This document shows, piece by piece, positions 15,349 to 18,624 of a DNA stretch of 64,000 bases (its first letter is position 1; each line of letters begins with the position of its first letter). A program made the position numbers and the translations under genes. The stretch covers positions 1 to 64,000 of the forward strand of contig JAJRXX010000035.1 in the NCBI GenBank assembly GCA_024276075.1, given 5' to 3'. The stretch comes from Planctomycetota bacterium. Lineage in GTDB: Bacteria; Planctomycetota; Phycisphaerae; Phycisphaerales; Phycisphaeraceae. The notes under the pieces are model-generated. The model saw only the letters and a program-made list of their open reading frames with translations, was not told where the DNA came from and made no database searches.

Positions 15349-17118
15349 TTAGTTCAACGCAGCGCAGCACCATGCGCTCGACGCGCCGACGTATACTTCC
15401 TGCAAGAGATGTACCTTCACCAATTCGCCTAGGCGACCGACGATCGCCGCAGCGGGTTTGGCATGATCCGTGAACAGGTGCAACACCGGTTGTGCCGACT
15501 CGTCGAGCATGCCGCCAGGGCACGCCAACCTTAGCAGCGAGATGTTCGCATGCGCCCATTGCCCCACTTCCATCAATCCCATCACAGCAGCACGCAGCAT
15601 GACCGCTGCGTCCAGGTCGATCCGCTGCGAGCCGTCATCCGCTGCGGTATCCTGCCCGCCAAACCGCATCAACACGTGTAGGCGTCCGCGTTCGTCCACC
15701 GCCAGTTGAGCGTCCAGCCAATAGGGGCACCTCGCCTCCAGACGCTCACAATCACCGGACACATAGGCGCACAGGTCCAGTTCCGCGTCCTGATCCGTGC
15801 CTATTTGTATTTCACCGTCGGGTGCCGGCAAGTGTTCTGATACCACCGTGTCTTCGAGTTCATCCACGTTAGTTGCATATTCACCCGCTGCTGTTTGCCA
15901 GCGGTCTACGCTTGTGTCGTCCTGTTCATCCACGTCGTGAATTACCTTTTGCTTCGTGAGCGATCCCGCTAGTTGGGCATCTCCCGCTTTGGCCGCCATC
16001 GCATCCTCGCTATCTACTGCTTCGGTCCTCGACCCATCTGCGAGCTGTTCCAACACTGTTTTGAGTCTTGACCAAGGGTCGCCATCGTCTTCAGTAAAAT
16101 ACCCGATGCCCCGCATGTGCACGGGCCGCATCTGCTTCTGCCACCCCTCCAACTCCACCGGTGTCGATAGGAAACTACCCGCCGCCTGGCTGAGCTTCGC
16201 CGCCACGCCCTGCCCTACCGACCCGTCGCTGCCCATCACCATCACACCCACCCGGTGCGATGTGAGTTCGTTCGCTTCTCCTTCACTTGTCGGTGCCGGA
16301 TCACCCGTCAGTTGCTTGAGTAATCGGTACGCCCCCACGACTGCCGCGTCGTCCGACCCGCAAAGGATCGTCCATCTCTTTATCTGTATAGCCCGTGCAC
16401 GCGCTTCGGGCGCAATCGGTGTCGGGAAATGCACCAGCCACGCACGCACACTCACACCGCTGTGCCCCCGCGACAACCGCTCGACCACTTGCGCTACCGA
16501 AAGTTCACCCGGGTCCGCCAAGCCAGCCGCGTCTTCCAATTCGTCTAATACCCGCTCACTCTCACCCACCAGTTCGACGTCTACGTCACTCCCATCGATC
16601 GTCACGATCCCCACCGGTCCGCACTGGCCGCTGACGCGCCACGCATACTGCGTGAGCCATGGGCCGCTAAAGCCGGGTAGGTTGCCCAGGAATATCGCTT
16701 CCACGCGCGTCGCTGCTGGATGTTCATGCGTACCTGTGTCGTCTGCCCCCGATTTGTCGCTTAAACCGATACCAAAATCAGTCGTAGAACCCGCAGAAGA
16801 AGGTGACGCATAACGCACCGCTTCGGGGAACAGCCGGATCGGCTCGGGACCGTCTAGGTCATCGCCTTGCAATCCCTCACTGCTGCGACTCGTCGGCTGG
16901 GCCCCCGACATACTCCCGGGCATCTTCGATCGCCACTGAGAACACGATCGGCCCGAATCACTATCGGATACGTCTGACCAATCTGATGTGGTGACCGTAT
17001 GGGGCGAGGTGGACGCTGCTACAGCTTTAGCCGAAGGCGGCTGGGGCGTGTCGATACCTGTCAGGTACAACTCCGCCAAAGCGTCTAGAGTTTTGCGCGT
17101 CCGGGTCGGATCGTCCAT
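15349..17118 (-). CDS. Large protein with degenerate MinD/FlhG-like ATPase fold, ParA neighbour
   Basis: A 589-residue protein not assigned to a named family. Residues 1-135 are acidic, Ser/Asp-rich and probably disordered. From about 140 the pattern resembles a ParA/MinD-type fold: RVEAIFLGNLPGFSGPWLTQ sits where the P-loop would be but has no GKT; RAWLVHFPTPI matches the switch II strand; KRWTILCGSDDAAVVGAYRLLK matches the strand and helix that in MinD reads like 'lvvttpe..av.dAY.lik'; HRVGVMVMGSDG matches the 'vvN' strand. A second acidic linker (about 355-430) precedes a C-terminal domain of about 160 residues. Start ATG 17118 has GAGGGTG upstream. It lies 162 bases downstream of parA-CBM48, same direction, possibly one operon. 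Function is inferred only: a non-catalytic partner. Confidence 0.7.
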   Translation of the reverse strand: MDDPTRTRKTLDALAELYLTGIDTPQPPSAKAVAASTSPHTVTTSDWSDVSDSDSGRSCSQWRSKMPGSMSGAQPTSRSSEGLQGDDLDGPEPIRLFPEAVRYASPSSAGSTTDFGIGLSDKSGADDTGTHEHPAATRVEAIFLGNLPGFSGPWLTQYAWRVSGQCGPVGIVTIDGSDVDVELVGESERVLDELEDAAGLADPGELSVAQVVERLSRGHSGVSVRAWLVHFPTPIAPEARARAIQIKRWTILCGSDDAAVVGAYRLLKQLTGDPAPTSEGEANELTSHRVGVMVMGSDGSVGQGVAAKLSQAAGSFLSTPVELEGWQKQMRPVHMRGIGYFTEDDGDPWSRLKTVLEQLADGSRTEAVDSEDAMAAKAGDAQLAGSLTKQKVIHDVDEQDDTSVDRWQTAAGEYATNVDELEDTVVSEHLPAPDGEIQIGTDQDAELDLCAYVSGDCERLEARCPYWLDAQLAVDERGRLHVLMRFGGQDTAADDGSQRIDLDAAVMLRAAVMGLMEVGQWAHANISLLRLACPGGMLDESAQPVLHLFTDHAKPAAAIVGRLGELVKVHLLQEVYVGASSAWCCAALN

Positions 17119-17286
17119 GATCACCCTCGCGTCTTTGATCGGATGCCTGCCATCACGTCCTGATTAGGCACTGCACCCAAACGTTGCGTCTACTTATTTG
17201 CGGTCGCGGGACACGGATGCCTCGCTTTTAACCCTAACCATCGCAGAATTAACAGTCTGCTACGCTCGCCCCCCGCGCTCCCCTCG

Positions 17287-18624
17287 CTAATTAGCCGTGT
17301 AGCTGCCCGAATCGATATTTACAACACTATTCAACTCACCGAACGGGTTGGTCTCGACGCAAGTGTTGTACGGATCGCGTACCCACTTGCCGTCGACCAC
17401 CAGCCGGTAGTGGTATTTCCCGGGCCCCACAGGCACGCATGCCTGCCAAATGCCTAAATTCTCGTCGAGGCGCATCGGCGTGGCGGCCGGGTCCCAATCA
17501 TTAAAATCACCCACAATGCCAACGTGCCTGGCTTCCGGTGCTGGGTGTACAAACAACAACCCCTGCGAGGTCTGGCGCACGCCATACACACGGCCAAGTT
17601 TCTGATCCAACCCCTCCTTGGCATCCACAGGACTGGCCGGTGACAGGGTACGCTCTTGCTCCACCGCGGGCTCACGGTCCGCCACAGCCGTGGCGGCTTG
17701 ACCTTCCGACAACCCCTCCGTGAGCGTCGTCGTAGGCAGCCTCGCAGCCAATGCCGCGGTGCGTGCGGACAGTGCCTTGGCGCGTTCCACCAACTCCGCA
17801 GCACGATCGACCACGCCTCCCGCCTGTACAGCGGATTCCTCAGGCTGATAGCTGGGCGTCGGCGGGTTCGATACCAGCCACTGCGCCAGCTTCTCGAAGT
17901 CCTGCATACCCCTGCTACTGGGATCGTATTCACAAATCGGTTGGCCGAAGCTCGCCGCTTCCTTGAGCTTGCTGTTGTAGTAAACCACCACGGGCAGCAG
18001 CTTCTCGCCGAACTGCCTGCGGAGTTCCATCAAAATCTCACGCGCCAGGCGCGTGCGCACGTCGTACATCGTCGCGAGCACCTTAAACCGCACCCGGTGG
18101 CCCGCGCGACGTGCCAGCATCTGAATCGTCGCCTCCTGACGCACCGCACCCTGTAACGCAAAATAACCCGTCTCGACCGGGATGATCACTTCGTCAGCAG
18201 CCCGCAGCGCGTTAAACGTCAACAGCCCGATCGACGGGGGGCAGTCGATTACGCAATATTCGTATTGATCCGCCACCGTACTAAGCACCTGCATCAGCCT
18301 GCGGTCCTTATCCGGGGCCAGTGATAGCTCCTGCTCCAAAGCTGCCAACGCCATCGTACAAGGCGCCAAATCAAGATTACGCGATACCTGCCACACGATG
18401 TCCGGCACCGCAATCGTCCCGTCCAAGCCTGCTCGCAGCAGGTCGCCGATCGACCGCTCCACCTGCGCCTCGGGTACCGCCAGCCCCAACGAGCAGTGCG
18501 ACTGCGGGTCCACATCGACCAACAGCGTGCGTCGTCCCTGAGACGCCAATACCGCTGCAAGGTTGATCGAGGTCGTCGTCTTGCCGCAGCCACCCTTCTG
18601 ATTAATGATCGCAATCGTCCGCAA
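17287..18624 (-). CDS. ParA family ATPase fused to a CBM48 glycogen-binding domain
   Basis: A 445-residue fusion. Residues 1-255 are a full ParA/Soj ATPase: deviant Walker A KGGCGKTT (10-17, signature Lys10), LLVDVDPQ (34-41), VIDCPPSIG (125-133) and the usual C-terminal helices. A linker rich in Ala/Glu (256-340) leads to an AMPK-beta/isoamylase-N type CBM48 at about 355-437. The glucan-binding positions appear conserved: FNDWDP (Trp377) and DGKWVRDP (Trp414) match the two tryptophans of the AMPK beta glycogen site, and an Asn near NSVVNID matches its conserved Asn. No ParB or parS was seen, so it is not an ordinary chromosome-partition locus. Inference: an ATPase that positions or tethers a glucan. 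Confidence 0.93.
   Translation of the reverse strand: MRTIAIINQKGGCGKTTTSINLAAVLASQGRRTLLVDVDPQSHCSLGLAVPEAQVERSIGDLLRAGLDGTIAVPDIVWQVSRNLDLAPCTMALAALEQELSLAPDKDRRLMQVLSTVADQYEYCVIDCPPSIGLLTFNALRAADEVIIPVETGYFALQGAVRQEATIQMLARRAGHRVRFKVLATMYDVRTRLAREILMELRRQFGEKLLPVVVYYNSKLKEAASFGQPICEYDPSSRGMQDFEKLAQWLVSNPPTPSYQPEESAVQAGGVVDRAAELVERAKALSARTAALAARLPTTTLTEGLSEGQAATAVADREPAVEQERTLSPASPVDAKEGLDQKLGRVYGVRQTSQGLLFVHPAPEARHVGIVGDFNDWDPAATPMRLDENLGIWQACVPVGPGKYHYRLVVDGKWVRDPYNTCVETNPFGELNSVVNIDSGSYTAN

Follow-up and report, generated by a model that had tools for sequence, protein, structure and literature searches.

If ParA-type ATPases place DNA and protein machines within the cell, what might such an ATPase do with a carbohydrate-binding domain of its own? 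The question is raised by one gene in the window, a 64,000-nucleotide stretch of a Planctomycetota genome (class Phycisphaerae), whose product joins a ParA domain to a domain of the CBM48 type, here called the CBM. ParA-type ATPases have been shown to position DNA and protein machines, with McdA the first case that concerns a metabolic process (PMC8262871); little is known of how bacteria place glycogen or share it out. We searched the literature for a ParA with glycogen or CBM48, and the papers covered contain no description of the fusion.

The fusion protein and its sugar site

The reading frame is complete and fills exactly the bounds given in table 1. Residues 1–173 match AAA_31/ParA (E 5.7e-47), and near the C-terminus Pfam returns both CBM_48 (residues 349–419, 38.4 bits against a cut-off of 22.4) and AMPK1_CBM (residues 364–438, 39.4 bits against 26.8); Rfam gave no match. 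Among proteins of solved structure, the N-terminal part comes closest to chromosomal ParA/Soj and the C-terminal part to the carbohydrate-binding domains of GlgB or AMPK-β, and AMPK-β is the closest resemblance when the core of the CBM is searched alone. In the AF2 model both domains have high confidence, the CBM forming a beta domain with a pLDDT of 90–98 (the fold-search lists were filled by ParA matches), and a flexible linker lies between them. The earlier note had read the protein in much the same way. The ParA domain that it called complete is confirmed, and KGGCGKTT with the signature lysine is invariant in 51 homologues; its CBM48/AMPK-β-like domain is borne out by the Pfam scores and the AF2 beta domain; and its linker of about 85 residues has the right length, with a single conserved helix inside. 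Since the fusion is kept in many genera, a chance artefact is excluded.

Table 1. Features of the fusion gene and of the gene downstream of it (window positions). Counts refer to the 152 CBM sequences described in the text.
Feature	Positions	Strand	Remarks
ParA–CBM48 fusion CDS	17287..18624	(-)	445 aa; TTG start; homologues begin at the same Met-Arg-Thr-Ile
ParA/Soj-like ATPase domain	17866..18624	(-)	residues 1–253; deviant Walker A and signature lysine
Conserved helix inside linker	17743..17811	(-)	about residues 272–294; AF2 model and column conservation
C-terminal CBM48/AMPK1_CBM domain	17302..17610	(-)	about residues 339–441; Pfam, AF2 model, structure-database comparison
Trp377 codon (AMPK-β Trp100 equivalent)	17494..17496	(-)	Trp in 152/152
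Arg407 codon (AMPK-β Lys126 equivalent)	17404..17406	(-)	Arg in 147 or Lys in 1 of 152 (Arg/Lys 148/152)
Trp414 codon (AMPK-β Trp133 equivalent)	17383..17385	(-)	Trp in 147/152
Asn432 codon (AMPK-β Asn150 equivalent)	17329..17331	(-)	Asn in 137/152
Partner CDS	15349..17124	(-)	591 aa; GTG start at 17124, ATG at 17118; directly downstream of fusion, conserved across families
Partner N-terminal helix	17062..17109	(-)	conserved LDxLADLFL-type motif
Partner MinD/FlhG-like domain	16039..16710	(-)	P-loop lysine replaced (GNLPGFSGPWLTQYA)
Partner C-terminal alpha/beta domain	15352..15786	(-)	AF2 model; no Pfam match

Does the ATPase domain keep what its relatives use? Its fold is close to that of Soj (Z 34.2 to 9a6n, 245 residues aligned, rmsd 1.9). 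The deviant Walker A with its signature lysine, the Walker A' and the Walker B are all present, and the Walker motifs are invariant in an alignment of 51 sequences (A1). Arg189 and Lys218 (A1 numbering) are conserved in 49 and 50 of the 51 respectively, at positions that match the DNA-binding residues R195 of CcParA and K227 of HpSoj. Through these positions the domain may bind DNA non-specifically.

What of the sugar site? To judge it, we counted residues in the CBMs that are fused to this ParA, 152 distinct sequences in all, taking the contacts as described for AMPK (PMC9788615). Those contacts are nearly fixed (table 1), whereas the median identity of CBM columns is 65%. The position of AMPK-β Leu146 is aromatic (Phe or Tyr) in 138 of the 152. 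The two tryptophans that the earlier note had thought conserved do align with the AMPK-β pair, and both are invariant in the 51-sequence alignment too. In the plant protein PTST the same two CBM48 tryptophans are required for starch binding (PMC4339375). Judging by these residues, the CBM probably binds alpha-glucan. The five exceptions (L134, L136, L142, G051 and G181) group in a single region of the tree, where several contacts have gone jointly. In one lineage, f3 and its kin, the sugar site is decayed, and three relatives have no CBM at all, while the ParA and the downstream gene are kept (loci L134, L136, L142, L161 and L179 for the decayed and the CBM-less cases together).

The gene downstream

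With what might the ATPase work? Directly downstream lies a gene, overlooked by the earlier note, that represents a previously unnoticed protein family. It occupies this place in 40 of 80 named loci, and several copies overlap the stop codon of the fusion by 4 bases. ParA partners are usually encoded directly downstream, and several act through a charged N-terminus (PMC8262871); because of this precedent the downstream protein is likely to be the partner of the ParA, and is so called here. Genomes of the Sedimentisphaerales type and of f19 lack it next to the fusion, and in the named loci without it no other neighbour is conserved.

The family is very divergent, at 12–40% identity, and has no Pfam match. 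What its members share is an N-terminal LDxLADLFL-type motif, an extended disordered region, a MinD-like domain and a further domain at the C-terminus. Searched against the PDB, the profile of the partner finds FlhG (E 1.9e-8) and FleN (E 3.4e-6), and FlhG is the best fold match of its model (Z 11.8, 168 aligned, rmsd 3.9). Alignment of the partner profile with the ParA–CBM profile by hhalign was not significant, so that kinship with MinD/FlhG rests on the PDB profile match and the fold match. Where KGGxGKT is expected, the P-loop reads GNLPG or GHLP; with its lysine lost, the partner probably does not act as an ATPase. Its neighbourhood shows no recurring flagellar genes.

Ancestry and glycogen enzymes

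How widely, and for how long, have the two domains been joined? In the window's own family the fusion protein was found in 34 of 37 sampled genomes (in one only partially, at a contig end), and further cases are spread throughout the order. When 148 good genomes were sampled evenly from the class, 99 had a ParA of the fusion type; after the CBM was re-examined wherever the first search had matched the ParA part alone, it proved intact in 92, decayed in two and lost in five. The architecture described by the earlier note thus recurs among relatives, and more widely than that note reported, with an intact CBM in 92 of all 148 class genomes. In a tree of ParA domains (rooted at the midpoint for drawing only), the CBM-bearing members and five CBM-less ones are set off from the ordinary ParA that these genomes also carry. 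Since the tree groups members that bear the CBM with members that have lost it, the pattern fits a single ancient fusion with at least three subsequent losses of the CBM.

The 80 named loci come from Phycisphaerae or from less resolved Planctomycetota records, except for one with a Kuenenia label and two unplaced bacterial records. The Candidatus Kuenenia contig (L116) carries a gene of the Phycisphaerae type and is probably mis-binned. No plasmid record among the 5000 best covers 80% of the query.

Is there glycogen for the CBM to bind? In the window's genome GH13 enzymes are lacking, and GT5 gives weak matches only. A genome without glycogen was considered on these grounds and rejected, given a GT3 glycogen synthase (713 bits), a GH57 branching enzyme with a C-terminal domain and an alpha-glucan phosphorylase (TIGR02094) split over two contig ends. 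There is also a second GH57 enzyme. The alpha-glucan pathway is apparently complete, if non-canonical, and because synthase, branching enzyme and phosphorylase are all encoded, an internal ligand for the CBM plausibly exists. The synthase (L167:4514-6370; G000:C6:46615-48375), of the eukaryote/Bacteroides type, replaces the usual bacterial GT5; GT3 occurs in 62 of the 148 class genomes.

If the CBM holds glycogen, do the two travel together? Across the class there is no positive association between GT3 and the fusion (GT3 in 37 of 99 carriers and 25 of 49 non-carriers), and the comparison is uninformative, because nearly every genome of the class has other glucan enzymes. The many class members that have glycogen enzymes and lack the fusion, those 25 with GT3 among them, count against the mechanism proposed below. 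Among carriers, GT3 and a strong phosphorylase are both missing from six of the seven genomes whose CBM is defective and from 10 of the 92 whose CBM is intact, but the Fisher p of 4.5e-5 overstates the link, because the test is post hoc, with a self-chosen threshold (phosphorylase E about 1e-18), and the cases cluster in family f3. Counted on the tree, about four of five separate CBM losses fall in genomes that have neither of these two enzymes. In G051, where the sugar site has decayed, GT3, GT5-like, GH57 and GT35 are all absent. G124 is a counter-example, with the same four families absent and the CBM intact; nine further genomes keep the CBM with neither GT3 nor a strong phosphorylase, and G049 has both enzymes and has lost the CBM. 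The state of the CBM is thus weakly tied to the glycogen enzymes. In the 80 named loci the fusion has no consistent linkage to any glycogen gene. Individual genomes do have a GT3 synthase or a GH57 enzyme some 4–5 kb from it (L109:16310-18127; G031:C1:4987545-4988246), which by rough estimate is not above chance across the set.

Proposed function and its alternatives

How might the protein act? In the mechanism that we favour, with a probability of about 0.4, it is an ATP-switched, DNA-binding ATPase of the ParA/Soj type whose CBM48 would bind intracellular alpha-glucan (glycogen or its outer chains), and which would work with the downstream partner. ATP-bound dimers on the nucleoid would grip glucan through the CBM, holding DNA and alpha-glucan at once. 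The conserved N-terminal helix of the partner would probably touch the ParA domain, while its degenerate MinD-like domain and its C-terminal domain would bind something else; hydrolysis stimulated by the partner would release the dimers. Glycogen would in this way be tethered to the nucleoid, spread over it or shared out with reference to it. The domain identities, the catalytic and sugar-contact residues and the conserved gene pair are supported by the sequences; binding to the partner, to the nucleoid and to glucan in the cell, together with positioning, is what we infer.

The earlier note had proposed that the protein may position, tether or partition glycogen granules, or let glycogen status steer the ATPase. 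What holds of this is a probable alpha-glucan-binding ParA, to which the CBM contacts and the glycogen enzymes point; positioning or tethering, with no glycogen gene consistently linked, is a tentative suggestion that we rate below an even chance. Slightly less probable is the fuller version, a self-organising system in which the ParA itself would grip glycogen and, with its pseudo-MinD partner, position it or partition it between daughter cells. If true, this would be a ParA system with a polysaccharide as cargo, in which energy storage is molecularly coupled to the organisation of the cell. Glycogen placement becomes directly testable through a ParA of this kind, whose conserved domain probably grips glycogen and which is ancient across an entire planctomycete class; the partner offers a new protein family to study.

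The main rival to tethering is a sensor of glucan status: the CBM would read glycogen as AMPK-β does and alter the state of the ATPase, which with its MinD-like partner would regulate growth, division or glycogen enzymes and move no granules. AMPK is inhibited allosterically on binding cyclodextrin or glycogen (PMC9788615), the CBM core is closest to that of AMPK-β, and ParA/MinD proteins such as FleN do regulate, the partner being FlhG/FleN-like. However, no regulatory target has been identified, and the ParA domain retains the DNA-binding residues that one would expect if the ATPase sat on the nucleoid and positioned a cargo. We consider a sensor unlikely, although sequence data cannot separate it from tethering. 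CBM48/E-set domains also occur as structural modules, and the present one might serve protein interaction or structure with no sugar bound. Such a role would fit some members in which ParA and partner persist but the domain, or its sugar site, is gone, and it would fit G124, which retains the CBM without recognised glycogen enzymes. Yet few residues are as conserved as the sugar contacts (Trp, Arg, Trp, Asn), which decay jointly in one lineage, and a sugar-free role seems improbable to us. We regard as very improbable a factor like BcsQ, the orphan ParA of cellulose production (PMC9178275), acting in the making or export of a polysaccharide with the CBM holding the nascent chain at the envelope. 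The CBP_BcsQ profile does match the fusion protein, at 68 bits, and cellulose production provides the orphan-ParA precedent, but the top matches are Soj/ParA, the CBM48 contacts are of the alpha-glucan type, and the neighbourhoods of relatives show no recurring secretion operon.

Could this instead be an ordinary chromosome-segregation ParA that merely happens to bear a CBM? Its nearest solved relatives are indeed chromosomal Soj/ParA. The earlier note had thought such a role unlikely for want of ParB and parS. Within the window that absence is confirmed, a parS-like 16-mer giving 0 matches with up to 3 mismatches and no ParB lying beside the fusion; genome-wide it fails, since contig C14 carries a ParB, and contig C24 an ordinary ParA. 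Because this ParB adjoins no ParA at all, position leaves its cognate ParA unfixed, and the argument from a missing ParB is weak. The conclusion stands on other ground: since the same genomes hold a separate clade of ordinary ParA, and since the conserved neighbour of the fusion is not a ParB, a plain segregation role is quite improbable. The ParB without an adjacent ParA and the ordinary ParA without an adjacent ParB (L149:7477-8592, L148:7416-8468) differ from the usual parAB pair. A near-identical stretch (LRNYSPSPQEEGRSMTCPTPELTWRLFMQGAL), dispersed-repeat-like, occurs in short ORFs on two contigs of the genome (L148:14163-14495 and L152:11177-11545).

How does the pair compare with known systems? 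In sequence and fold the ATPase is closest to the Soj/ParA of chromosomal ParABS (about 40% identity, Z 31–34), whose Walker motifs and DNA-binding positions it keeps; it differs in carrying a CBM48, in having no adjacent ParB or parS and in forming a clade separate from the ordinary ParA of the same genomes. With the glycogen-binding domain of AMPK-β the CBM shares the Trp100, Trp133 and Asn150 contacts and a basic residue at Lys126, whereas Leu146 has become Phe or Tyr and Thr148 Glu, and the domain sits on a ParA ATPase instead of a kinase scaffold. PTST, a plant protein of CBM48 and coiled coil, is likewise non-enzymatic and uses the same two tryptophans to target its partner to starch (PMC4339375), but it is a chloroplast protein without an ATPase and is unrelated beyond the CBM. 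The middle domain of the partner matches FlhG by profile and by fold, and both have an N-terminal helix; the partner lacks the P-loop lysine, has an extra C-terminal domain and bears LDxLADLFL in place of DQAxxLR, the motif of the FlhG enhancer helix (PMC12826062).

McdA/McdB resembles the pair in its ParA fold (Z 29.6 for the fusion to 6non), in the gene directly downstream, whose product is the (here putative) partner and has long disordered regions and a distinctive N-terminus, and in a metabolic cargo, here a supposed one (PMC8262871). The present partner, unlike McdB, ends in CAALN instead of an invariant C-terminal Trp and has a MinD-like domain. We conclude that the fusion is a variant within the ParA family and not a new sort of system. 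In known ParA systems the cargo is bound by the partner and not by the ParA itself; here the ATPase bears the putative cargo-binding domain, and the supposed cargo is a polysaccharide.
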